Positions 2-24,043 of a stretch of DNA of 40,726 bases are shown here, one piece after another. A program made the translations under genes and the position numbers. The notes below the pieces were generated by a model, which did no database searches, had not been told where the DNA came from, and saw nothing but the letters and a program-made list of their open reading frames with translations. Origin of the DNA: Pyrinomonadaceae bacterium (GTDB lineage Bacteria > Acidobacteriota > Blastocatellia > Pyrinomonadales > Pyrinomonadaceae); contig JAMQPI010000195.1 of assembly GCA_023717565.1 (NCBI GenBank), forward strand, positions 1 through 40,726, written 5' to 3'. Numbering within the stretch: the first letter of the stretch is position 1; every line of letters starts with the position of its first letter.

Positions 2-3000
2 ATGGCGGCCTCTGTTTTAATCACGCTAATCAGCTGTGGAACTGTTTTTTCGCAATCCTCAACGGGTAGCATTTCGGGCACCGTAACTGATCAGAACAAT
101 GCGGTGGTACTGGGCGCTACAGTTCTTGGAAAGAATACCGAGACGGGATTCGTGCGTTCGGCGGTAACGAATTCATCTGGCCTTTACCGCCTCACAGACA
201 TTCCATCCGGACCATCTGAAATAACGATCGCAGCGGCAAGCTTCAGGAAGCTTGAACGGGGCGGCATCACACTCGACGTCGGTCAGAACGCCATCGTCGA
301 TGCAGTTCTGCAGCCGGGCGAGATCGTGGACTCCGTTACCGTCAACGAGAACGCGTCGATGCTCAACTCCAGCACTGCCGAGGTGAGCACGCGCTTCGAC
401 AGCCGTCGCCTCTCTGAACTGCCGATCTCCCCGAACCGTAGTGTTTATAACGTACTTCTGTCCACACCGGGCGTCATCCAGCTGGCAACCGGCCAAGCGA
501 CTTTTAACCAAGTTCTGAGTTTTTCGGCAAATGGCGGACGAACTCGTTCGAACAACTTCATGCTCGACGGTCAGGACATGAACGACCCAACGTTCACCGG
601 CGCCGAGGTCGCTCTAAACAATCCGGATGCGATCCAGGAAGTCAGTATCATCACAAATCAATTCAGGGCTGAATACGGTCACAACGCGGCGTCGATCGTA
701 AATGTCGTGGGTAAATCGGGCACGAATAATTACCACGGCTCATTGTTCTGGTATCACAACAACGAGTATTTGAATGCGTGCAGTAACCTCGACAAGGTTG
801 CCACAGGTGCTCCGACCGGTTTCTGCAATAATGACGCCGCTAGTGACGCCAGAAAACGGGCCCCACTACGCAATGAGAATCAGATCGGCTTTACTTTCGG
901 CGGCCCGTTGACACTTCCGGTGTTTGGTGATGGGGGCGACCGATATGTTTGGAAAGGTACCGATAAAACTTTTATTTTTGGTGATTATCAGCGATGGTCG
1001 GATCGGTCTCTGGTGTCTGGTCCCACGATAAACGGAGCGCCGACCGCTGCCGGGCGAGCCTTATTGCAATCAGTCGTCGGCGATCGTCCTCAAGTTCAGG
1101 CTCTTCTGAGATCTGTGCCCGCAGGAATACCAAACGGCACATTCCAGCAATTTACGATTCTGGGGCAGCCACCTCGGAACGTGGAGCTCGGCGATTTCAC
1201 AGGCTCGTCGCAGTTTGTATTTGACGACCACCAGGGCTCGTTGAGACTTGATCACAGGTTTAACGAAAAGAATTTCTTCTACGCCCGCTACCGATTTGAT
1301 TCGCAGGACTCGTCCGGCGGCGGTCAGGTGACACCGCCCGGGCTGACAACGGTTAACGAATCGAGATCATCGGCTCTGGCAATCGTCCTAAACAGCGTTC
1401 TCACGAGTAGATCTTCGAATGAGGTCCGCTTCGCATGGCTACAATTCAGTTCGCGAGGCGATGCTGAGTTTCCGTTCTCAAAGACGATCCCGGCAATGAC
1501 GATCGTAGGCTTGGGGATGGTTCAATCGAACGCGGGTTCCCGGGCACTAGGCTTTTCTCCCGGTCTGCCCGGCTTTCGAGAGCATGACACCTATCAAATT
1601 ACTGATGCCTTTTCATATGTCACCGGCGCGCACAGTATGAAGTTTGGCGTTGAATTGCGCCGGACGGATGCCAGGCTTCTCGGGATTTTGAATACGAGGG
1701 GAACCTTGACGTATAGCACTCTCTCGAGTTTTGTGAACGATTCCGCCAATCCGGCTACCAAGAACTTCCTGCTGGCGGGCGGCGAGAGTGCAGGTTTTTA
1801 TCGCTGGCATGAGTTCTATGCCTTTGCTCAGGATGAATGGAGGATCCGGGATAGCTTGACCTTGACTCTTGGAGTTCGCTACGAGTATCCGGGTGACCCG
1901 TTAAGTTACTTGAGAGGACTAAATGGCCGGATCCTGGCTGCTAACGGCAACAACCCGCTATTCAAGCTGCTGGGCCCCCTTCCGGAAACCGATGCGAATA
2001 ATCTGATGCCGCGGATTGGCTTCAATTGGAATCCGCGCACGGGCAAAAAGGGGATCATCGGCTTTTTTACGGGAGGAGACAAGCTCGTGGTCAGTGGCGG
2101 TTATGCGCGAACCTATGACCCGATCTTTATGAATATCGTCGTGAATATGGGTGCCTCGTTTCCCTTCGTCGCAACTCCGCGAATGCCGACAACAAATGCT
2201 TTCTTAGCTGTCCGAGATACGACGGTGCCGGATTTGTCTCAGGCGAATCTTTTCACCAGATTTGTGCTTTCGGCAGACATTCGCTCTCCGGCGACAGATC
2301 AAATATCGATTGAGACACAGCGTGAGTTAACGAAGGATCTCGTAATGAAGATTGGGTACATAAGAACGCGAGGAACCGGATTGTTGCAAAGCATCGATGG
2401 AAATCCTTGCCTTCCGCTCCCTGCATGCACTCGCGTGAATCCCAATCTGGGAATAATCAACTTGTACACAAATGCTGCGAGCTCTACCTACGACGCTCTT
2501 CAGGCAAGTTTGACAAAGCGCTTGAGCCGTAATTTCAGTGCCGGCCTACATTACACATGGAGCACGCTCATAGACGATGTGACCGATGTCATTCCTGCTT
2601 CTACGTCGGAATTCTCCCGCTCGCAAAATTCCTTCGATCGTCGCGCTGACCGCGGCCGTTCGGGGTATGACCGCCCGCACCGGTTGACGGGGAACTTTGT
2701 GTATGAGCTTCCGTTCTATCAGCACCAAACCGGATCAACGGGCAAGTTTTTTGGCGGTTGGCAGCTTAATTCCTTCTTCACTTTTCAAAGCGGAGCACCC
2801 TTTACTGTTACGCTTGGTTCGGATCTTACGGGGTCCGGGAATCCGATTCGTCCGAATCTAAATACAAATTTGGATCTATCGAGCATGACGATCAGCGAAA
2901 TTTTGGCCGCCGGTGGCGCGAACCTTTTTCGAGGGCTTTCCCCGGGGCAGCGGGTAGGAAATGCAGGCCGAAATATTCTGCGGTCGGACGGCCTTAACCT

Positions 3001-3202
3001 GGTCGATTTTGGGATCATCAAAAACACACGCTTATCAGAAAATGTTCGGATCCAATTACGAGCCGATATGTTCAATGCCTTCAACTCTCGCAATTTCGGC
3101 ATTCCAAATGGCGCATTTAATTCAGGAGCCAATTTCTTTAATCAATGGGCGACCAACGGCGGTAACCGGCGAATTGTTTTAGGCGCGAGGTTGGCGTTCT
3201 AG
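2..3202 (+). CDS. TonB-dependent receptor, Oar-like, probably 5'-partial
   Basis: Outer-membrane beta-barrel protein of 1066 residues in this window. Residues about 4-18 are hydrophobic and end in a plausible signal-peptidase site, but no basic n-region precedes them, so the true start probably lies upstream of the window. A carboxypeptidase-regulatory-like beta domain follows (about 22-105, starting GSISGTVTDQ). Next come a plug domain (about 130-240, with the LDGQDMND element) and a long barrel ending in phenylalanine, as is usual for BAM substrates. This architecture is typical of the large Oar/TonB-receptor families expanded in Acidobacteriota. The substrate cannot be told. It is separated from the next gene by about 270 bases and is probably not part of the injection-system operon. 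Confidence 0.88.
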   Translation: MAASVLITLISCGTVFSQSSTGSISGTVTDQNNAVVLGATVLGKNTETGFVRSAVTNSSGLYRLTDIPSGPSEITIAAASFRKLERGGITLDVGQNAIVDAVLQPGEIVDSVTVNENASMLNSSTAEVSTRFDSRRLSELPISPNRSVYNVLLSTPGVIQLATGQATFNQVLSFSANGGRTRSNNFMLDGQDMNDPTFTGAEVALNNPDAIQEVSIITNQFRAEYGHNAASIVNVVGKSGTNNYHGSLFWYHNNEYLNACSNLDKVATGAPTGFCNNDAASDARKRAPLRNENQIGFTFGGPLTLPVFGDGGDRYVWKGTDKTFIFGDYQRWSDRSLVSGPTINGAPTAAGRALLQSVVGDRPQVQALLRSVPAGIPNGTFQQFTILGQPPRNVELGDFTGSSQFVFDDHQGSLRLDHRFNEKNFFYARYRFDSQDSSGGGQVTPPGLTTVNESRSSALAIVLNSVLTSRSSNEVRFAWLQFSSRGDAEFPFSKTIPAMTIVGLGMVQSNAGSRALGFSPGLPGFREHDTYQITDAFSYVTGAHSMKFGVELRRTDARLLGILNTRGTLTYSTLSSFVNDSANPATKNFLLAGGESAGFYRWHEFYAFAQDEWRIRDSLTLTLGVRYEYPGDPLSYLRGLNGRILAANGNNPLFKLLGPLPETDANNLMPRIGFNWNPRTGKKGIIGFFTGGDKLVVSGGYARTYDPIFMNIVVNMGASFPFVATPRMPTTNAFLAVRDTTVPDLSQANLFTRFVLSADIRSPATDQISIETQRELTKDLVMKIGYIRTRGTGLLQSIDGNPCLPLPACTRVNPNLGIINLYTNAASSTYDALQASLTKRLSRNFSAGLHYTWSTLIDDVTDVIPASTSEFSRSQNSFDRRADRGRSGYDRPHRLTGNFVYELPFYQHQTGSTGKFFGGWQLNSFFTFQSGAPFTVTLGSDLTGSGNPIRPNLNTNLDLSSMTISEILAAGGANLFRGLSPGQRVGNAGRNILRSDGLNLVDFGIIKNTRLSENVRIQLRADMFNAFNSRNFGIPNGAFNSGANFFNQWATNGGNRRIVLGARLAF

Positions 3203-15149: not shown

Positions 15150-16772
15150 ATGAGCAAGACAACGCAAAAGTCAACAAAGACCCGAGCCGCGCGCATGCCT
15201 GCGGAAAATTGTGGGCCAATCAGTCCATCGCCGCGATCGCAAGCTCACGATCAAATCCTGACGCTGCAACGCAGCCTGGGAAATCATGGGGTTGGTCAGT
15301 TGTTGCAACTGGGCTCGGAACATGCCGGGGTGACTATTAGCAACCCCACCAGTCCATTTGAGCAAGAAGCCGATCAGATTGCGGCACGCCACGGTGATGG
15401 CAATAGTGATGCTCACCGTTCTGGAGCTTCACCACAGAAAGGCAAGCTTGCCAACACGCCCGCCAACATCAGCACTTCTTCCGGCATGGGCCAACCACTG
15501 CCGGAACCCCTTCGCAATTCACTGGAACCTGCGTTTGGCTATGACCTAAGTCAGGTGCGTGTTCATACCGGTGGCGCCGCCTCCGAGACGGCAAAGTCGA
15601 TCAACGCCTCAGCCTTCACGGTGGGACAAAACATCGTCTTTGGCGCAAATCAATATGCACCCGAAACACCCGCAGGCCAGCGTTTGATCGCGCACGAAAC
15701 GGCGCACGTTGTGCAACAAGGTGCCGGCCACGTAATTGCGGGCAGCGGTTTGCCGGTGATCCAACGATCGCCCGGCCCACCGGCGAATCTTGACCTGCCC
15801 TGGACCAAAGGAAGTCATTCGCTTTTTGAAGTTACGAGCAGTGGCATCCGGGTTTTGGTTGGCGTTGCAGGCAGCAGCGAAGCGAGTGTCAGGAAAGTGA
15901 TACCGAAGATCGCGGAACGCGTTTCCAAAGACAACAAGTTAATAAAGGATCCAACCCTTCAAGTTGGTACTGTTTTTATAGCTCCCACCACAACTCGTTT
16001 TGCCCTGCTTCACGGTGAGGGTGTTTTGATGCTGGCGCCGGAGGATGCCGACGTCGAAACCGTGGCGCATGAGATGGGCCATGCAGTTTTTCACGCCTTG
16101 TCGACTCGAGGTAGTTCGAAGGCCAAGGACGCGGAACCATCGAAGAACTTCACGCTGCAGATGGCGGACATCTTTGTAAGGCTTTCCAGCACAAAGGCCG
16201 TAAAGATGAAGGGAACATTGGGGAAGGATGAAACACACGCCATCGGTCTGTGGATGGTCGACCCCTCGCAGTGGAAGCCAGGCGGAAAAGTAGAACACCC
16301 GTGGGACGACCCGGATGAGTTCTTCGCGAGTGCTAAAGAAGCGTATCAAACTGATCGAGCGGCTTTGGTCAAGAGCATCGCGAAAGCAACCAAAGTCGAT
16401 AGCAAAGTTAAAGATCCCGCAAAAGACCTACTCACCGCGCTGGACGACTTACTCGGCTCCGGAAAACTTGGCGCGTCCGCGATATCCGGCGCGCGACTTT
16501 CTGACGCGCAAACTGCGCTTGGCCGACGCACCGGGATCAGCAAAGTAGAAGACACACTCAGCAGCAACCCTGTTTTGGAATGGATATTAGATCCCACGAG
16601 CAGACCGACAGAGGAAAAGGCTGAACCCAGCGTGGAGGCGCCAACCGACTCAACGAAACCTCCAACGCGGCCCAACATGGTCACCGGACCGGGCGGTGTT
16701 AAGGAGCGCATGGAAAAGAAGTTCCAGGAACGCCTGCGCGAAAAAATTCTCGATAGCGTAAACGAACTGTAA
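15150..16772 (+). CDS. DUF4157 protein with C-terminal zincin-like peptidase domain (candidate cargo 5)
   Basis: 540 residues. Motif LQRSLGNHGVGQLLQ is at 39-53, followed at once by ISNPTSPFEQEADQIA at 63-78. The DUF4157 domain spans about 115-195 with HETAH at 182-186. A second HExxH, HEMGH at 307-311, and DEFFAS with Glu390 lie in the C-terminal half, the same gluzincin-like pattern as in the protein at 10244. Residues 490-530 are proline/threonine rich and probably disordered. The layout (motif before DUF4157, zincin after) equals that of cargo 3, so these two form a subgroup. It is the last accessory gene before the structural genes. Injection and proteolytic activity are inference. Confidence 0.83.
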   Translation: MSKTTQKSTKTRAARMPAENCGPISPSPRSQAHDQILTLQRSLGNHGVGQLLQLGSEHAGVTISNPTSPFEQEADQIAARHGDGNSDAHRSGASPQKGKLANTPANISTSSGMGQPLPEPLRNSLEPAFGYDLSQVRVHTGGAASETAKSINASAFTVGQNIVFGANQYAPETPAGQRLIAHETAHVVQQGAGHVIAGSGLPVIQRSPGPPANLDLPWTKGSHSLFEVTSSGIRVLVGVAGSSEASVRKVIPKIAERVSKDNKLIKDPTLQVGTVFIAPTTTRFALLHGEGVLMLAPEDADVETVAHEMGHAVFHALSTRGSSKAKDAEPSKNFTLQMADIFVRLSSTKAVKMKGTLGKDETHAIGLWMVDPSQWKPGGKVEHPWDDPDEFFASAKEAYQTDRAALVKSIAKATKVDSKVKDPAKDLLTALDDLLGSGKLGASAISGARLSDAQTALGRRTGISKVEDTLSSNPVLEWILDPTSRPTEEKAEPSVEAPTDSTKPPTRPNMVTGPGGVKERMEKKFQERLREKILDSVNEL

Positions 16773-16804: not shown

Positions 16805-18154
16805 ATGATCGATCTACTGGACAACTTAATGCGCCAGCTGCTGCTAGACCAAATTGCAGAGTTGATTGATGAATCGCAGATTCAGTTTCAACCTCCTGAC
16901 GCGACGTGGCGCACCTTTGTCTCGAACCTGACGGTGCTCGGCAATCCGGTTAATGCTCTCAATATTTACCTCTTCGATCTGCGCGAGAACCGCAAGCTGC
17001 GAAGCAACGAGAGATTTCGAAGCATTGAAAACGGGATTGTCAACGACGAACCCGCACCTGCACGTCTGGATTGTCATTACTTTATCAGCGCCTGGAGCCC
17101 GGCACAGGTTAGTCCACTGGTCGAACCGACACTCGACGAGCACGCGCTGCTTTATCAAACCTCAGCCGTACTCGCCCGCACTGGATCTTTCAACCCTTCT
17201 CGCGTTTTTCCGAACGGTTCGTTGCCGCTCAACGCCTGGCCGGCGCCTTTCCGCGACGATGATTTCCCAGTGACGCTGCTACCGGTTGATGGCTTCAACA
17301 AGCTCGCTGAGTTTTGGAGTGGAATGGGCGATGGTGCTCGTTGGAAGCCTGGGATTTACCTCATCGTCACGCTGCCGATAGCGCTGCTGTTAGAGGTCGC
17401 AGGTCCTATGGTGACCACGCGCATCACCGAGTATCGAATAACCGACAGACCGGAGAGTGCAGAAGTGTGGATTCAGATTGGCGGTCACACGTTGTCGCCC
17501 GCGCGATCGCTGGCTGTAGGAAATGCAAACGTTACCAACGTTGGTGGCGGTGGCAATCCCGTTACAGTCGATAATCCGGGCGCCTTCCGTATCGGCGATA
17601 CCGTCACCGCAAATGGCATTACGCGCGCTGTAGTCAACCAGATTGCCGGTAACGATCTGACGCTCAGTCGCGCCTTGCCCGGATTGATCATTGGCAATGT
17701 GTTGCGCATCGCCGATCTGACGCCGGCGCAGGTTAGTTTCCGAGTAACAAATCGTGCTGGTCTGGCTTCAGGTGGTCCAGGCAGGATCACCGGTGATGAT
17801 GCCACTAGTCCAGGCAACATAGTCTCAGAAGAAGCCTTCATCGAGACCGTGCTTGCGACAGACTTCGTGATTTTAAAACCATCCGCCACTCGCACTAGAA
17901 CGTTCAATCTCAACGTCGCGCCGGCCAACGCTCCTCTGCTTGAAGAAGCGTTGCCGAATATCTCGGTGGAGTTACTCAATCTGGCCGGCGATCGACTCCA
18001 ACTAACACAAACAAACGAAGCGGGGCGCTTCACTTTCGGCAACTTGCGACCCGGAAGTTATCAGCTCCGCGCACAGGCACTGGGTCTGGCGCCGGTGTTA
18101 CGCAACATCGATGTTCCTTCGCCCACTGGAGAGTATGACCTGCGGTTCACTTAA
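16805..18154 (+). CDS. DUF4255 tube-terminator protein (Afp16/Pvc16-like) with C-terminal carboxypeptidase-regulatory-like domain
   Basis: 449 residues. The N-terminal about 195 residues are DUF4255: LDNLMRQLLLDQI at the start, TVLGNPVNALNIYLFDLREN, and LDCHYFISAWSP near 80-90. Family members cap the end of the tube and sheath opposite the baseplate and define particle length. Beyond the core are a glycine-rich beta insertion (about 235-300) and a C-terminal domain (about 375-449) with GRFTFGNLRPGSYQLRAQ, a carboxypeptidase-regulatory-like beta-sandwich. This extension is longer than the minimal Afp16 layout and would be exposed at the distal end of the particle. A short hairpin (ACCGG-TAAG-CCGGT, 16772-16785) precedes the gene, just after the upstream stop. 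Confidence 0.9.
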   Translation: MIDLLDNLMRQLLLDQIAELIDESQIQFQPPDATWRTFVSNLTVLGNPVNALNIYLFDLRENRKLRSNERFRSIENGIVNDEPAPARLDCHYFISAWSPAQVSPLVEPTLDEHALLYQTSAVLARTGSFNPSRVFPNGSLPLNAWPAPFRDDDFPVTLLPVDGFNKLAEFWSGMGDGARWKPGIYLIVTLPIALLLEVAGPMVTTRITEYRITDRPESAEVWIQIGGHTLSPARSLAVGNANVTNVGGGGNPVTVDNPGAFRIGDTVTANGITRAVVNQIAGNDLTLSRALPGLIIGNVLRIADLTPAQVSFRVTNRAGLASGGPGRITGDDATSPGNIVSEEAFIETVLATDFVILKPSATRTRTFNLNVAPANAPLLEEALPNISVELLNLAGDRLQLTQTNEAGRFTFGNLRPGSYQLRAQALGLAPVLRNIDVPSPTGEYDLRFT

Positions 18155-18213: not shown

Positions 18214-20187
18214 ATGGCAGTACAAGTTTCCTATCCCGGAGTTTATATAGAGGAGTTTGCCCCGGCGCCGCCAATTCAGGGTGTAGGCACAAGCACTGCT
18301 GCCTTCATCGGCGTGGCAGTCAGCGGGGATTTGGACGAGCCCACAAAAGTCACGAGCTGGGACCAGTTTAAGCAGCGCTTCGGCGAACAACCGGTGCCAG
18401 GCTTCTTTATGTGGTATTCGGTGCGAGGTTTTTTTGAAAACGGCGGAAACGTCTGTTACATCGTTCGAGCCAGCAACGGCGACTACGATGAACTCGACCT
18501 TCTCAATACTCCTGGCGATCCCGTGATTAGGGTCAGAGCGCGCCAACCAGGGGATAACGTCGCTGCTGGTAACCCGATTCAACTTGCAGTCGCCGCTGCA
18601 CACCTTGTTCCCAATACGTCGTTGGTGTTTCAGCCGACGGGCGCTTTGAATGTCAACGCCGGCGCCGGCGCGAGGGAAGTGACTCTGGCCGCTGGTCAGG
18701 GTGTGAACTTCAAGCCCGACGATTTCATCACTATCGCCGCGATCGGAGAACGTGTTCGTGTTCTCAGTGTCAGCGTCGATACGCTCCGTCTAGCGAACGG
18801 CCTTGTTAACGCTTATGTCGCTGGAGATGCTGTCAGGCTTGCCGATGCGCCTGTCGGGACCCGGACCGTGCGAATTCGCGGTGTGGGAAATTCATTACCT
18901 ACCGGCACTCTCGTGTCCGGAACGATTCTCACCATCACGCAAGGTGCGGCGACCGATTCTCAAGTTGTAGAGTCAGTGCAGACCGAACCTCTGGGTGGCG
19001 GACTGACCACTTATCGAGTAACGTTCAGGGCTGGACTCGATATTCCGCTCAGTCTCGATCCGGCTGATGCCACTCAAGTTGAATCACAGGAATTCAACCT
19101 GGCTGTAACTCAGAGCGGTGTGACCACTAACTACCTCAACCTCTCAGTTGACGCTGCTCATCCAAATTATTTCGCGAGCATTGTCAATACGCCGGGCGGC
19201 CTGGTGCGAACGGAGTTGGTTGATCCACCCCCACCAGTCGACCCGCCCAACAATTTGCCCGCAACTACCGGCGCAACCAACATGACCGGAGGTGCAGCCG
19301 AGAATCTCGCGACGATCGCGGACCAGGATTTCATCGATGCTCTCGACACGCTGCGAGAGGTCGACGATGTAAACATTCTTTCGCTCCCGGATCGCATAAA
19401 TAATCCGGTACAGCAGGCACTGATCGCACATTGCGAGCAGTTGGCAGATCGATTTGCGGTGCTTGACGGCCTACGCCCTGTTCCGGACCAACCTTTGTTT
19501 GGTCCAGGAAGTATTGAAGTGCAGCGCCTATCGGTCGACTCCACTCGCGGTTACGCAGGTCTCTACTATCCCTGGTTGCGCGTTCCACGTCTTGGTCCAG
19601 GTGCTCCAATTCTGGTGCCGCCGTCGGGTCACGTGTGCGGCATCATGGCGCGTTCCGACAACAACCGCGGTGTCCACAAAGCGCCCGCAAACGAGATTGT
19701 CAATGGAGCAGTCGGCGTTGAGCGTTCCATGAGCGACATCGATCAGGGCCAACTCAATCTGCAAGGCATCAACATCATCCGGATCTTTCAGGCTGGCGGC
19801 CGTCCCATGCTTTGGGGTGCGCGAACGACAGCCACAGATCGCAACTGGCAGTACGTAAACGTGCGCAGGCTGTTTCTCTTCGTCGAAGAGTCGATTGAAG
19901 AGGGCATTCGCTTTGCGGTGTTTGAGCCGAACAATCTTCAACTCTGGCAAAAACTAAAACGAAGCATCACCGACTTTCTCACAAGAGTTTGGCGCGATGG
20001 CGGGCTCTTTGGAGCCAAAGCAGAAGACGCGTTCTACGTGCGCATCGATGAAGTTCTAAATCCTTTCTCGGAACAGGCTCTCGGACGCCTGAATATCGAG
20101 ATCGGAATGCGTCCGACCTTTCCCGCCGAGTTCATCATTGTGCGCATAGGCATTTTCCAGGGCGGATCTGAAATAACCGAAGTGTAA
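18214..20187 (+). CDS. Contractile tail sheath protein (Afp2-4-like)
   Basis: 657 residues. The start VQVSYPGVYIEEF is the hallmark of phage and eCIS sheaths. A conserved N-terminal core and the C-terminal core (about 500-657, with GRLNIEIGMRPTFPAEFI near the end) flank a large variable insertion (about 100-370) that would face outwards. The sheath contracts and drives the tube into the target. A very strong ribosome site (AAAGAGGAGG) lies 6 bases before the ATG, fitting a protein needed in hundreds of copies. Only one sheath gene is seen, whereas Afp and PVC have several paralogues. Confidence 0.96.
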   Translation: MAVQVSYPGVYIEEFAPAPPIQGVGTSTAAFIGVAVSGDLDEPTKVTSWDQFKQRFGEQPVPGFFMWYSVRGFFENGGNVCYIVRASNGDYDELDLLNTPGDPVIRVRARQPGDNVAAGNPIQLAVAAAHLVPNTSLVFQPTGALNVNAGAGAREVTLAAGQGVNFKPDDFITIAAIGERVRVLSVSVDTLRLANGLVNAYVAGDAVRLADAPVGTRTVRIRGVGNSLPTGTLVSGTILTITQGAATDSQVVESVQTEPLGGGLTTYRVTFRAGLDIPLSLDPADATQVESQEFNLAVTQSGVTTNYLNLSVDAAHPNYFASIVNTPGGLVRTELVDPPPPVDPPNNLPATTGATNMTGGAAENLATIADQDFIDALDTLREVDDVNILSLPDRINNPVQQALIAHCEQLADRFAVLDGLRPVPDQPLFGPGSIEVQRLSVDSTRGYAGLYYPWLRVPRLGPGAPILVPPSGHVCGIMARSDNNRGVHKAPANEIVNGAVGVERSMSDIDQGQLNLQGINIIRIFQAGGRPMLWGARTTATDRNWQYVNVRRLFLFVEESIEEGIRFAVFEPNNLQLWQKLKRSITDFLTRVWRDGGLFGAKAEDAFYVRIDEVLNPFSEQALGRLNIEIGMRPTFPAEFIIVRIGIFQGGSEITEV

Positions 20188-20204: not shown

Positions 20205-20645
20205 ATGGCTACCGGACAAAGAGTCGATCCCTTCGGAAATTTTAATTTTCTTGTCGAGATCGACGGCATCACGCGCGCGGCATTTCATGAAGCAAGCGGC
20301 TTCGACTCAAGCATTGACGTCACCGAGCACCGCGAAGGTGGCGAGAATACGACGATGCGAAAACTGCCGGCGCAAACCAAATACTCGAACATCACGCTCA
20401 AGTGGGGAACAGCGCCTGACCATGACCTTTACGACTGGCATCGTCAGTGGGTTACGGGCGACCCTGCCGCGCAACGAAAGAATGGCTCGGTGATCCTGCT
20501 CGACCGGGCCGGTCAGGAGAAGTTGCGTTGGAACTTTACCAATGCCTGGCCCGCAAAGTGGACTGGCCCAAGTTTTCAGGCTGAAGGTAACGACGTAGCC
20601 ATTGAGACGTTGGAGCTGGCCCACGAAGGACTCGTGCGAGCGTAG
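20205..20645 (+). CDS. Tail tube protein (Afp1/Afp5-like, gp19 family)
   Basis: 146 residues, the usual length of eCIS and phage inner-tube proteins. Family features: DPFGNFNFLVEIDGI at 8-22, FHEASGFDSS, the KLPAQTKYSNITLKWG block, and WHRQWVTGD. The protein stacks as hexameric rings inside the sheath, and cargo is carried in its lumen. A strong ribosome site (AAAGGAG) precedes the ATG, 18 bases after the sheath stop. Only one tube gene is present, so the same subunit must also contact hub and terminator. Confidence 0.95.
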   Translation: MATGQRVDPFGNFNFLVEIDGITRAAFHEASGFDSSIDVTEHREGGENTTMRKLPAQTKYSNITLKWGTAPDHDLYDWHRQWVTGDPAAQRKNGSVILLDRAGQEKLRWNFTNAWPAKWTGPSFQAEGNDVAIETLELAHEGLVRA

Positions 20646-20683
20646 AACAACTAGCTCGAGTCGAGGTCAAAAGGAGGATCGTT

Positions 20684-21046
20684 ATGCTGCAAACAGAGTA
20701 TGAATTCACTCTGCCCATGGGGTATGCGGATGGGGAGGGTGCGCTTCATCGGGAAGGAGTCATGCGACTGGCAACAGCGGCCGATGAAATCCTGCCGCTG
20801 AAAGACCCCCGCGTGCAAAGCAATGAAGCGTACCTGCTTCTGATTCTGCTCTCTCGTGTCGTCACCAGGCTTGGTGCTGTTTCTCAAATCAATCCCAAGG
20901 TGATGGAAGGACTGTACGCCGCTGATCTGGCCTATCTCCAGGACTTCTATAACCACATCAATCGCAACGGAAAAGCGAGTTTGGAGGCAGTTTGTCCGAA
21001 GTGCGCGCACGAGTTTGAAGTGGAGTCGAATGGAACGGGGGGGTAA
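20684..21046 (+). CDS. Small eCIS assembly protein with zinc motif (tail assembly chaperone-like)
   Basis: 120 residues with a strong AAAGGAGG site before the ATG. The N-terminus (TEYEFTLPMGYADGEG) and the helical LLILLSRVVTRLGAV and YAADLAYLQDFYNHIN segments fit the small proteins found between tube and LysM genes in eCIS, and resemble phage tail assembly chaperones in size and place. The C-terminus has CPKCAHEFEVE, half of a zinc ribbon. The frame ends G GGG GGG TAA at 21037-21046. A -1 slip there would continue into the DUF6760 frame and give a product of about 172 residues. The function as chaperone is inferred from place and size. Confidence 0.82.
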   Translation: MLQTEYEFTLPMGYADGEGALHREGVMRLATAADEILPLKDPRVQSNEAYLLLILLSRVVTRLGAVSQINPKVMEGLYAADLAYLQDFYNHINRNGKASLEAVCPKCAHEFEVESNGTGG

Positions 21047-21058
21047 CAGGCTACCCCC
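21037..21058 (+). other. Putative -1 programmed frameshift site with hairpin
   Basis: The heptamer G GGG GGG (21037-21043) is in the X XXY YYZ phase of the upstream gene and directly abuts its UAA stop. After a -1 slip, translation continues as GTA ACA GGC TAC and onward into the DUF6760 frame without a stop until 21199-21201. A perfect 7-base inverted repeat, GGGGGTA (21039-21045) and TACCCCC (21052-21058) with loop ACAGGC, includes the slip site and stop codon. A homopolymer undercall (7 rather than 8 G) would give the same appearance. Confidence 0.55.
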
Positions 21059-21087
21059 TCAAGGCGCTGTATGAGGAGGTAGCCTTC

Positions 21088-21201
21088 GTGGCCTATCACT
21101 TCCACTGGGCTCCTGATGCGATTTTGAATCTGGAACACGCGGAGCGCCGCCGCTGGGTGGAAGAGATTTCCTTAATCAACGAACGAATGAGTCAAGTCTG
21201 A
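21088..21201 (+). CDS. DUF6760 small protein (separate from GTG, or as frameshift extension)
   Basis: The reading frame spells YPLKALYEEVAFVAYHFHW then LEHAERRRWVEEISLINERM, the pattern of DUF6760, a domain of about 50 residues known from eCIS loci. From GTG 21088 the product is only 37 residues and loses the YPLKALYEEVAF part. This GTG has a good ribosome site (GAGGAGGT at 21073-21080, 7 bases away). The conserved segment begins upstream at 21052, where no ATG, GTG or TTG is available. The full domain would therefore need a -1 frameshift from the preceding gene. Function is unknown; it lies between the tube and hub genes, so assembly is a fair guess. Confidence 0.7.
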   Translation: MAYHFHWAPDAILNLEHAERRRWVEEISLINERMSQV

Positions 21202-21207
21202 ACCTCA

Positions 21208-22119
21208 ATGTTAGCTGAAAACAATAAAGGACCAATCCGACGAGGTGCTCGATTACGCGGCACTACACGGCAGGGTCCGAAACCGACTGGTGTGAGTCGT
21301 TGGTCTCGCTGGGCACGGTCGATTGCGCTTCGACACAAGCGTTTCACGCAACGGCGTGACTCGCTGGCGTTGATCGTGCTGCGACTGCGCAGGCCTTTGA
21401 ATATATTTCGCGAGCGTTGGGCGTTCACAACCCGGATAGTCCAACCTCGATTGCAACTGGCCATCAACGCTTTTGTAAAATTGGTCCATTGGAGTCATCA
21501 GCAATATTTTTCGGGTGGACCAACCAGGATCAGTTCCCTTGCGCTAACAGATCAGCGCGTCTTCAGTTCTCCGGGGGTTTTAAGAACTCGTTCTGCACCT
21601 CGCAACCATGGTCGAGGCGAAACCAGCAATCGTCAAATCGCTTTTGCACTCGCAAGCGCCGATCGGGGTTCGACGGCTGGTTTTGTCGAGCCACCGAACG
21701 TCCTGAAGCCGCCTTTAACCTTTGTCTTCGAAAGACTCAAGGCGAGTAAGAAATCGACTCATCCGAGCAGATTTGAAGTGTTGAGTCACCAACAGGCGCG
21801 ATCGATTGTCGAGCGTGTGAGTCAGCAGTCCCGCAGGACTGAAACGATGACCATCGGCACTAACACTGTAATCGAGCGCCAGATGTCCTCACAGACGGCA
21901 GCAACACAGCCGCGACGGCTGTTGAGATCGGTCCAGGCGCCCACACGCGTGATTGAGAAAGCGGCGGCGGCTCCAGTGACGACGGTAGTTGAGACGGCGT
22001 CGTGGTTGCAGGACAAGGTGCCGGTAACTGGATTGAACATCGATCAGATCACTGACCACGTTGTACGACAGTTGGACCGACGGGTGGTCGCGGCACGCGA
22101 GCGAATGGGACGGGTTTAA
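21208..22119 (+). CDS. Basic eCIS-associated protein of unknown function
   Basis: 303 residues, unusually rich in arginine over residues 1-80 (e.g. RWSRWARSIALRHKRFTQRR), a low-complexity middle, and a conserved-looking C-terminal helix pair (about 265-303: LNIDQITDHVVRQLDRRVVAARERMGR). Proteins with the same end, of the form DxVxRxLExRxxxxRERxGR, sit at this place in many eCIS clusters, between DUF6760 and LysM genes. No ribosome site is visible before ATG 21208. An inner ATG at 21847 (AUG of MTIGTN) would leave only the C-terminal 90 residues. Function is unknown; a DNA- or acid-binding character of the basic half is only suggested by charge. Confidence 0.65.
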   Translation: MLAENNKGPIRRGARLRGTTRQGPKPTGVSRWSRWARSIALRHKRFTQRRDSLALIVLRLRRPLNIFRERWAFTTRIVQPRLQLAINAFVKLVHWSHQQYFSGGPTRISSLALTDQRVFSSPGVLRTRSAPRNHGRGETSNRQIAFALASADRGSTAGFVEPPNVLKPPLTFVFERLKASKKSTHPSRFEVLSHQQARSIVERVSQQSRRTETMTIGTNTVIERQMSSQTAATQPRRLLRSVQAPTRVIEKAAAAPVTTVVETASWLQDKVPVTGLNIDQITDHVVRQLDRRVVAARERMGRV

Positions 22120-22143: not shown

Positions 22144-22818
22144 ATGGCTCTGGCGAAAGCGCAAATCAAGAATCTGTTCACCGGCGAGATCTTCCACGTG
22201 ATCTTCAATCCTGAAGACTACACGCTGGCGAAAGACAACAACTTCGCCTCGCAGACGATCCCCGGTCTCGGGTCACCACTGCTGCAGTTTGTCAATGGAA
22301 ATCTCAGAACTCTCGAGATGAATCTGCTGTTTGACACTTACCTTCCGCTGACAACCGAATCGACACCCGTACGCGACGTGCGCGAAGAGACGCAAAAGGT
22401 TGTCGACCTTTTGAAAATCAACGGCGACTTCCATGCGCCACCGATACTCGAAGTTTCCTGGGCATCTCTCTTCCTTCGCTGTGTGCTGGCTCGCGTAAGT
22501 CAACAGTTCATCATGTTTCTCGATGATGGCCGGCCGGTGCGGGCAAGACTGACATGCACCTTTAATGAGTTCATCGACGAGGAACGAGAAGCAAAAGAAG
22601 TCAACCGGCAAACGGCTGACTTCAGTAAGGCCCACGTCGTTATCCAGAACGAAACACTTAGCAGCATCGCACAGTCGTTATATGGAAACCCGCAGCTGTG
22701 GCGTCCAATCGCGATTGCGAACGGCATTGACGATCCGCGGCAGCTGTTTGCGGGTCAGGTGTTGCGCGTACCGGCGCTGCCTTTCACTGATGCACAAAGT
22801 GGAGAAATAGTTCAATAA
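22144..22818 (+). CDS. LysM-containing hub/tube-initiator protein (Afp7-like)
   Basis: 224 residues. The N-terminal part (about 1-155) is the eCIS tube-related domain: AQIKNLFTGEIFHVIFNPEDY, then LQFVNGNLRTLEMNLLFDTY, and ARLTCTFNEFID. A LysM domain follows at about 163-212 (VIQNETLSSIAQSLYGNPQLW ... LFAGQVLRVP). In Afp and PVC this protein connects the tube to the central spike hub. The LysM here is thought to be structural, not secreted, since no signal peptide exists. It has a ribosome site (CAGGAGA) and is followed after one base by the hub gene. Confidence 0.92.
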   Translation: MALAKAQIKNLFTGEIFHVIFNPEDYTLAKDNNFASQTIPGLGSPLLQFVNGNLRTLEMNLLFDTYLPLTTESTPVRDVREETQKVVDLLKINGDFHAPPILEVSWASLFLRCVLARVSQQFIMFLDDGRPVRARLTCTFNEFIDEEREAKEVNRQTADFSKAHVVIQNETLSSIAQSLYGNPQLWRPIAIANGIDDPRQLFAGQVLRVPALPFTDAQSGEIVQ

Positions 22819-22819
22819 C

Positions 22820-24043
22820 ATGGCTGCTCGAATTCCCAAATATGCTCCACAGTTTCGCCTTCGCATAGATGGCGAACCATTGCCTGTTGCTTTGCTGGCC
22901 GCGGTTAGCACGGTGACTTACACGGATGGCATCGAAGGCGCCGACCGTGTCGAGATCACGTTCGCCAACCCAGGGCTGCGCTGGTTGGACCATCCAATAC
23001 TTCAAGCTGACAACAAACTATCTCTGTCAATTGGTTATGCGCCCGACCCGCTCGAAGAGGTGTTTGTCGGCGAGATTACGGGAGTCGAACCTTCATTCCC
23101 GAATGGCGCGATGCCTACGATCAGAGTCACGGCGCAGGACTTTCTGCAACGGTTGACGCACGGCAAGAAGGATCGCGCTTTCCGCATTAGTATTCCCTCA
23201 ATTGGGAATTTTCCTCTTCCCGATCCTGCTGTCGCTGCACTCGTGAGTGCGACAAATCTTCTTATTCCAAATCTCGATCCGATCGGTGGCGCCTTGTCGG
23301 TCTTGATGACACTCGCGGCCTATGTCACAACTCCCGACGGAGGACAAGTGCCAATTCGAAGACAGGAGAGCACCAGCGATTTCGATTTTCTTTCGGGTAT
23401 TGCCAAAGAAAACGGTTGGGAGATGTACATCGACCACACCCAGCAGCCGCGCGGTTATGTGTTGCGTTTCAAATTCCTGATCCAGGACTACGCCCCGAGC
23501 GTTACGCTGCGCTGGGGCAAGTCACTGATGGATTTCACGCCGCGGCTGACTACCGTGGGAGATCTTTTTGGCGTTACGGCGAGAGTTTGGATCGCAACGC
23601 TCAAAACTGAATTTGTGATCGTGGTTGGTTGGGATTTTGATCGCGCCGCCTTCAACCTGCAAATCTATCCCAACCTGATTGGCGACATAGACGCTGTTCT
23701 AGGTCCTGCGGCCGGTGGCAAGACTCTTTCAATAAAACCTACCGGATTCCCGACAGCGCTCCAGGAAATTCTAAGCGAACTTTTGCCGCGCCTTAACAAC
23801 CGGCTTACCGGTTCGGGAACAACTATCGGCGAACCTGCGATCAAGGCCGGAGCAGTCATTAATCTGGAGGGACTCGGTGAACAGTTCAGCGGGCTCTATC
23901 GCATAACGACGGCGACACACACACTCGACAGTAGCGGCTACAAAACAAACTTCGGCGTGAGGAAGGAAGTCTGGTTCGGATCGATTCCCCTCCCTAAAGG
24001 TCCGGTACCGCTGATTCGGCTTCAAGGACAAACGCTCGGCTGA
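22820..24043 (+). CDS. Baseplate hub protein, phage late-control gpD/gp27-like
   Basis: 407 residues. The N-terminal segment FRLRIDGEPLP, then EGADRVEITFANPGLRWLD and LSIGYAPDPLEEVFVGEITGVEPSFP, is the gpD/VgrG-N pattern. It also shows RVTAQDFLQRLTHGKKDRAF and STSDFDFLSGIAKENGWEMYID, where the second hub beta-domain starts. It forms the trimeric hub between the LysM protein and the spike. In Afp the hub and spike are one protein (Afp8); here they are split into this gene and the next, which starts 8 bases later. No unusual features. Confidence 0.92.
   Translation: MAARIPKYAPQFRLRIDGEPLPVALLAAVSTVTYTDGIEGADRVEITFANPGLRWLDHPILQADNKLSLSIGYAPDPLEEVFVGEITGVEPSFPNGAMPTIRVTAQDFLQRLTHGKKDRAFRISIPSIGNFPLPDPAVAALVSATNLLIPNLDPIGGALSVLMTLAAYVTTPDGGQVPIRRQESTSDFDFLSGIAKENGWEMYIDHTQQPRGYVLRFKFLIQDYAPSVTLRWGKSLMDFTPRLTTVGDLFGVTARVWIATLKTEFVIVVGWDFDRAAFNLQIYPNLIGDIDAVLGPAAGGKTLSIKPTGFPTALQEILSELLPRLNNRLTGSGTTIGEPAIKAGAVINLEGLGEQFSGLYRITTATHTLDSSGYKTNFGVRKEVWFGSIPLPKGPVPLIRLQGQTLG

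Follow-up and report, generated by a model that had tools for sequence, protein, structure and literature searches.

Probable programmed -1 frameshifting between a tail-assembly-chaperone-like gene and DUF6760 in contractile injection systems of Bacteria and Archaea

How is a conserved domain translated when its reading frame offers no start codon ahead of it? The question arises in a 40,726-nucleotide contig (JAMQPI010000195.1, assembly GCA_023717565.1) of a Pyrinomonadaceae bacterium, phylum Acidobacteriota; this whole stretch of DNA is called the window here. It carries an extracellular contractile injection system (eCIS) in which a small gene following the tube gene, gene 1, is succeeded in the -1 frame by DUF6760 (PF20546). 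Evidence from the window and its relatives suggests that programmed -1 frameshifting very probably makes from these two frames a chaperone pair of the G/GT type. The junction is composed of the following elements:

20684-21046, + strand: gene 1, short product of 120 residues, ATG start, phage tail-assembly-chaperone-like
21037-21043, + strand: slippery heptamer G_GGG_GGG, in phase in relatives too
21043-21201, + strand: -1 extension with DUF6760 (PF20546, E=2.2e-18)
21044-21046, + strand: 0-frame stop TAA, abutting the slip site
21049-21084, + strand: downstream hairpin, arms 21049-21060 and 21073-21084, GGCUACC/GGUAGCC core

Gene 1 ends in ACG GGG GGG TAA, so that the seven G form a heptamer of the X_XXY_YYZ kind in 0-frame phase within the overlap of the two reading frames and touching the stop; coordinates and phase are as the original prediction had given them. 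Its further claim, that the -1 frame runs into DUF6760 free of stops and of starts, is also confirmed. This frame is open from 21019, after a TGA at 21016-21018, to a TGA at 21199-21201, the domain scores 66.5 bits against a family cut-off of 27, and codon inspection finds no ATG, GTG or TTG from the upstream stop as far as the conserved Tyr codon (21052). The first in-frame candidate start, GTG 21088, is residue 15 of the stretch modelled with AlphaFold (predicted local distance difference test score, pLDDT, 94.6) and lies inside predicted helix 1 (residues 5-19; the other helices span 23-27 and 31-50). Counted from the coordinates, the predicted long product would be about 172 residues in length, with NGTGGVTGYPLK as its predicted junction peptide.

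The same arrangement recurs far from the window. DUF6760 lies at -1 relative to gene 1 in 121 of 122 distinct two-gene loci (window included), which represent 10 phyla of Bacteria and Archaea, and a fused gene occurs in none; the sole exception in frame, L095, has DUF6760 in frame 0 with a separate start and was excluded, leaving 121 loci for analysis. The starting set comprised the window plus 132 loci (133 sequences in all), one of which, L001, duplicates the window. Left out before counting were L081 (no match to the profile), seven copies, and L080, L082 and L093, where gene 1 is absent nearby; the removal of copies left 125 distinct DUF6760 loci, window included, with gene 1 adjacent in 122. 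Related entries were retained in two cases (L021 and L023, from the same metagenome-assembled genome, and L060-L062, identical in the tree). PF20546 searches of seven genome neighbourhoods (E<=0.001, seed genome counted) found matches in 3/297 genomes of the window's phylum, 19/194 around a Calothrix, 6/349 around a Nitrosomonas (three above the family cut-off), 16/246 around a Streptomyces, 22/251 around an Anaerolineae, 9/196 around a Natrinema and 4/199 around a Bacillota genome. A scan of genome contigs with DUF6760 yielded 43 loci, and plasmid records gave 34 matches, nine of which were retrieved for analysis. Named loci bearing a slip site belong to the Acidobacteriota, Acetothermia/Bipolaricaulota, Nitrospirota, Pseudomonadota, Chloroflexota, Actinomycetota, Cyanobacteriota, Bacillota and Deltaproteobacteria/Myxococcota, and, among Archaea, to the Methanosarcinales and Halobacteria (one phylum by the tree labels).

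Of the 121 loci, 114 have a phased slip site no more than 20 codons from the stop (G_GGG_GNN in 92, G_GGA_AAN in 21, T_TTT_TTA in one), a count that includes the non-canonical G_GGG_GAR as a slip site. When the site nearest the stop is taken, the G_GGG class ends in GAA (37), GAG (26), GGG (18), GGA (9) or another triplet (2), and the rest have G_GGA_AAT (15), G_GGA_AAG (3), A_AAC_CCR (4, read from GGAAACCC ends), T_TTT_TTA (1) or none (6). The commonest site is thus G_GGG_GAR rather than the G_GGG_GGG of the window, most sites with five G being of this kind, and haloarchaea have G_GGA_AAN. Clustering at 80% ungapped identity of the gene-1 body reduces the 121 loci to 100 clusters, of which 75 have G_GGG, 17 G_GGA, one T_TTT and seven no site nearby. 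In a Bacillota sample, L130, an in-phase T_TTT_TTA overlapping G_GGT_TTT replaces the G-run, likely a swap of one slip site for another.

The slip site at the junction is more than chance. Any slip site occurs in the last eight codons of 110/121 loci against a mean of 16.4 (maximum 28) in 500 rounds of synonymous shuffling that left the protein unchanged and followed the codon usage of each locus, and G_GGG_G in 89/121 against 9.4 (maximum 18). Tube-gene ends of the same loci, taken as a control, have G_GGG_G in 0/116 and any slip site in 1/116; windows in the interior of gene 1 have 2/484 and 13/484, respectively. Picking loci by amino acids alone leads to the same picture: in 87 the last six codons include Gly-Gly/Glu, the first Gly is encoded by GGG in 86 of them (17.4 expected), and in the same 86 the preceding codon ends in G (37.0 expected) while encoding any of 11 different residues, including Leu, Ala, Met, Pro, Ser, Val and Thr. 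The single miss is L031, with GGGAAAG. Likewise, among 22 loci with Gly-Asn/Lys in the last eight codons, GGA is used in 20 (5.4 expected) and the codon before the Gly ends in G in all 22 (10.1 expected).

The hairpin of the window begins 5 nucleotides after the heptamer, with a stability of -21.9 kcal/mol and z = -3.22 against synonymous shuffles. Against dinucleotide shuffles the 52-nucleotide fold has z = -2.09 (7/200 as good) and the 68-nucleotide fold z = -1.26 (20/200 as good), which is only mildly unusual. The original prediction had placed a stem over the slip site itself; read as pairing of the G-run with a C-run, that stem is incompatible with 21049-21060/21073-21084, which both the minimum-energy fold and the relatives favour. 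Across loci a hairpin made of DUF6760 codons lies 3-5 nucleotides downstream. Against protein-preserving shuffles its stability over the 121 loci has a mean z of -2.50, with 84 loci below -2 and 90 in the lowest 5%. Two stem types were recognized, type 1 with the core seen in the window (73 loci) and type 2, UACGCGACC/GGUCGCGUA-like (19 loci); because the type sets were chosen by pairing, a percentage of paired positions within them is biased, whereas the shuffle test over all 121 loci is unbiased. Neither type fits 29/121 loci, about 20 of them haloarchaeal. Covariation is 0.202 in type 1 against 0.126 (standard deviation 0.008) when shuffled, with 6/11 pairs changed on both sides, and 0.102 in type 2 against 0.066 (standard deviation 0.008), with 3/14 pairs so changed. 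In G_GGG loci the spacing from heptamer to stem is 5 nucleotides in 62/68 of type 1 and 3 nucleotides in 17/18 of type 2, and GTA accounts for 64 of the 80 Val codons at +27 among 93 such loci (12.7 expected). The hairpin is kept at the nucleotide level in loci with a G+C content of 33-77%. Mean z by class is -2.76 for G_GGG, -1.71 for G_GGA, -1.35 for L130 and -1.57 for the seven loci with no site nearby, a value from which a loss of the stem in these seven is not clear; slip-less L009, L098 and L129 fit type 1, and slip-less L094 fits type 2. The hairpin is a candidate stimulator of the slip.

Could DUF6760 instead be a separate protein? It would be one if ribosomes terminated and reinitiated at an overlapping start (or at a rare AUU, AUC, AUA or GUA) with GGGGGA as ribosome-binding site, which we consider unlikely. 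The window is one of 76 loci among the 121 in which no ATG, GTG or TTG is found within 30 nucleotides upstream of the domain, the codons at -9 and -6 varying widely there, and in 55 of the 121 the entire open stretch holds no start codon. A candidate start within 30 nucleotides does exist in 45/121 loci, in the type-2 hairpin group the stop is often overlapped by GTG or ATG, and five of the six slip-less loci (L092, L094, L097, L098 and L129) have an ATG at -9; these points speak for reinitiation, the last of them counting for frameshifting as well. Of the 115 slip-bearing loci, 40 have a nearby start too, so both routes may act there. In the five slip-less loci the ATG seems to replace the slip, and a tree built from both proteins, its root serving for drawing only, groups four of them in one clade adjoining slip-bearing rows, which fits a slip replaced by a restart codon. 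An ATG-started DUF6760 gene lacking the slip, which the original prediction had named as the contrary case among close relatives, is thus found in 5/121 loci, but in none close to the window. Moreover, G_GGA_AAN in haloarchaea and T_TTT_TTA in L130 are slip heptamers, not binding sites, and initiation would be expected to suffer if a stable stem covered the supposed start. In the gene tables of the plasmids, which are incomplete, L052 is without a DUF6760 gene and L047, L048 and L055 have odd starts, namely ATA (L048), ATT (L055) or a TTG inside the domain. The ATA and ATT would suit reinitiation; odd or missing annotation is, however, also expected if DUF6760 has no start of its own. The sixth slip-less locus, L009 (Streptomyces flaveus), keeps frame and hairpin at its junction near 2990-3010, with the G-run broken and no start within 30 nucleotides; a pseudogene, an error or another mechanism are candidate readings.

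The GTG at 21088 was offered earlier as an alternative, independent start with a good ribosome site, for which AGGAGGU would serve. The AGGAGGT ends 7 nucleotides upstream and is widely conserved, but it can be accounted for by the stem, whose 3' arm includes it, GTG occupies that codon in only 13 of 93 G_GGG loci, and initiation inside the domain would forfeit most of predicted helix 1; such a start is very improbable. We think it scarcely likely, too, that transcriptional slippage on the G-run adds a base: the window has seven G, but most G_GGG relatives have five or six and haloarchaea have GGGAAA with no long homopolymer, and a downstream hairpin with a fixed codon phase would suit a ribosomal event. 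A sequencing error or a broken gene might come to mind for a genome in 735 contigs. However, the arrangement is the same in 121/122 distinct loci, including plasmid records labelled complete, and relatives from many phyla keep the G-run in its phase and likewise lack the start; a miscall in one assembly cannot explain such a pattern, and this explanation is refuted. Programmed -1 frameshifting joining gene 1 to DUF6760, the core of the original prediction, is the reading that conservation supports. Phase, slip site, absent start, hairpin, their conservation and the chaperone homology are features of the sequences themselves, from which we infer the frameshifting, its rate and the function of both products.

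By homology, gene 1 is a relative of phage tail assembly chaperones, and its role as a chaperone would follow from this kinship. Two alignments, A3 and A4, hold 56 and 50 of the 121 loci. All 56 gene-1 members match phrog_508, and the fold is that of the YqbN/HK97 chaperones. Weak matches to Phage_TAC_7 (10/56, best 0.0021) and Gp41_Mu (12/56, best 0.01) are equalled in number by unrelated zinc-ribbon families. Among viral folds the top match is an uncharacterized Bacillus phage protein (1.2e-7), and T4-like baseplate hub assembly proteins follow from 1.6e-6. The original prediction had proposed that the slip accounts for a small gene between tube and hub in place of a tape-measure chaperone; the frameshift part of that proposal is supported, but the small gene itself looks like a tail assembly chaperone. 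For DUF6760 phage kinship is less evident. Its members have weak matches to the phage profiles phrog_10636 (27/50, best 5.8e-7) and phrog_1756, a tail protein (18/50, best 1.7e-4); tblastn of DUF6760 and gene 1 against 50,697 phage records found no relative at the sensitivity used, a scan of viral contigs for DUF6760 gave 32 candidate stretches and no confirmed relative, and sequence searches of the PDB returned nothing meaningful. A fold search with DUF6760 in viral proteins had no match at E<=0.001. Among the 50 matches listed in that search are small phage proteins with template-modelling (TM) scores up to about 0.8, including three named tail-assembly or tape-measure chaperones, which we take as a lead only.

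Several phage systems resemble the junction in part. The named frameshift product closest to gene 1 by structure is Mu FS-gp41 (P0DJY4, E=2.8e-3, rank 9), of the Mu gp41/FS-gp41 and P2 gpE group. P2 E is frameshifted as well. Unlike this group, the gene-1 group of eCIS is marked by a C-terminal CxxC and the hairpin. Tail chaperones of T4-like phages, according to the title of one paper, are said to use something other than translational frameshifting, whereas the slip is the rule in the eCIS loci studied here. Lambda gpG/gpGT and their relatives in long-tailed phages likewise have a small chaperone gene with a -1 slip towards its 3' end and a C-terminal extension in the -1 frame, and in the lambda model gpG binds the tape measure while the T part brings in the tube protein (PMC5009743); the machines here, in contrast, are host-encoded injection machines and the extension is DUF6760. 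The same paper reports G_GGA_AAC/AAG slip sites for haloarchaeal viruses, a type also found in haloarchaeal eCIS. Among about a thousand SEA-PHAGES frameshift sites, GGGGGAA is reported as the sequence of the 'fivetwo' motif (PRFect, PMC10885494). Heptamer and G:U re-pairing explanation are shared with the sites described here; those are phage data, however, and the term 'contractile injection' is absent from that text.

The setting of the junction is that of an eCIS, with sheath, tube, spike, baseplate, eCIS core and Pvc16 genes present together:

15150-16772: eCIS_core (DUF4157) protein, upstream of the Pvc16-like gene
16805-18154: Pvc16_N protein
18214-20187, + strand: sheath protein
20205-20645, + strand: tube protein (Phage_T4_gp19, E=8.4e-49), directly 5' of gene 1
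21208-22119, + strand: variable Arg-rich open reading frame (ORF) of 303 residues, tape-measure position
22144-22818, + strand: CIS_tube + LysM protein
22820-24043, + strand: tail or baseplate hub-like protein (phrog_52 tail protein, E=3.5e-20; phrog_196 baseplate hub, E=9e-6)
After the hub-like protein: further contractile injection system (CIS) genes, namely spike OB protein, PAAR, gp25 and baseplate J

With the window set aside, CIS genes accompany 118 of 121 loci, and in 117 of these 121 a tube gene is matched on the same strand; 84 have it no more than 1.5 kb upstream. The eCIS_core protein also has a metallopeptidase match, weak and under cut-off. PADLOC found no match for three proteins, and Rfam none over 20600-21400 up to E=1.

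The window order, tube, chaperone, variable ORF, LysM/hub, recalls phage gene order, and a variable ORF occupies the position after DUF6760 in many loci. That of the window ends in LDRRVVAARERMGRV, a C-terminus resembling those of ORFs of different length in several relatives; it has no family match and no detected tape-measure homology. Eight ORFs in this position were scanned against Pfam; six had no match and two, in filamentous cyanobacteria (L018 3150-5240 and L052 2650-4968, right after DUF6760), are FHA proteins. Some loci have a second tube-like gene here, and several lineages have other genes. We regard the 303-residue ORF as a candidate tube-filling protein and client of the chaperone. 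A possible type of client is the Tme effector (PMC11126660), a tape-measure-like protein encoded directly upstream of CIS baseplate genes; the text of that paper does not contain the word 'Frameshift', and the ORF of the window differs in the homology just mentioned.

How, then, would the junction work? Some ribosomes translating gene 1 would move back by one base when they reach G_GGG_GGG next to the stop, with the hairpin 5 nucleotides downstream acting as a brake that favours the slip, and would continue through DUF6760, so that one start site would supply the 120-residue chaperone and some of the fusion of about 172 residues. By homology with lambda gpG/gpGT and with the Mu/P2-type chaperones, the short form may coat a tube-filling or tube-measuring protein, for which the product of the variable ORF is a candidate, and the DUF6760 part of the long form may bring in tube subunits. 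A -1 frameshift is a mechanism of a known kind; its occurrence in host-encoded machines of two domains of life, with this hairpin, appears to be new, and searches of the open-access literature, as far as its text was available (subscription papers and preprints lay outside this scope), brought up no report of frameshifting in an eCIS chaperone.

Two CIS papers report clusters without a tape-measure gene (PMC11566945, PMC10066040), and the portions of them available name no tail chaperone. The odds seem about even that the CIS of both domains inherited an ancient chaperone switch of the G/GT type, the slip fixing a ratio of two forms that controls the building of the tube around a filling protein, with particle length or cargo loading set by translation. 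If so, the switch would supply the assembly chaperone left unnamed in the CIS parts lists, as given in those portions, would account for the difficulty of annotating the DUF6760 gene, and would represent a case of recoding in non-viral machines that is conserved in 10 phyla together with a hairpin at the nucleotide level. In a given lineage one slip site (G_GGG, G_GGA, T_TTT) could then give way to another, or the slip itself to a restart codon. The conserved slip in a chaperone gene offers a direct experimental handle on tube length and cargo loading.
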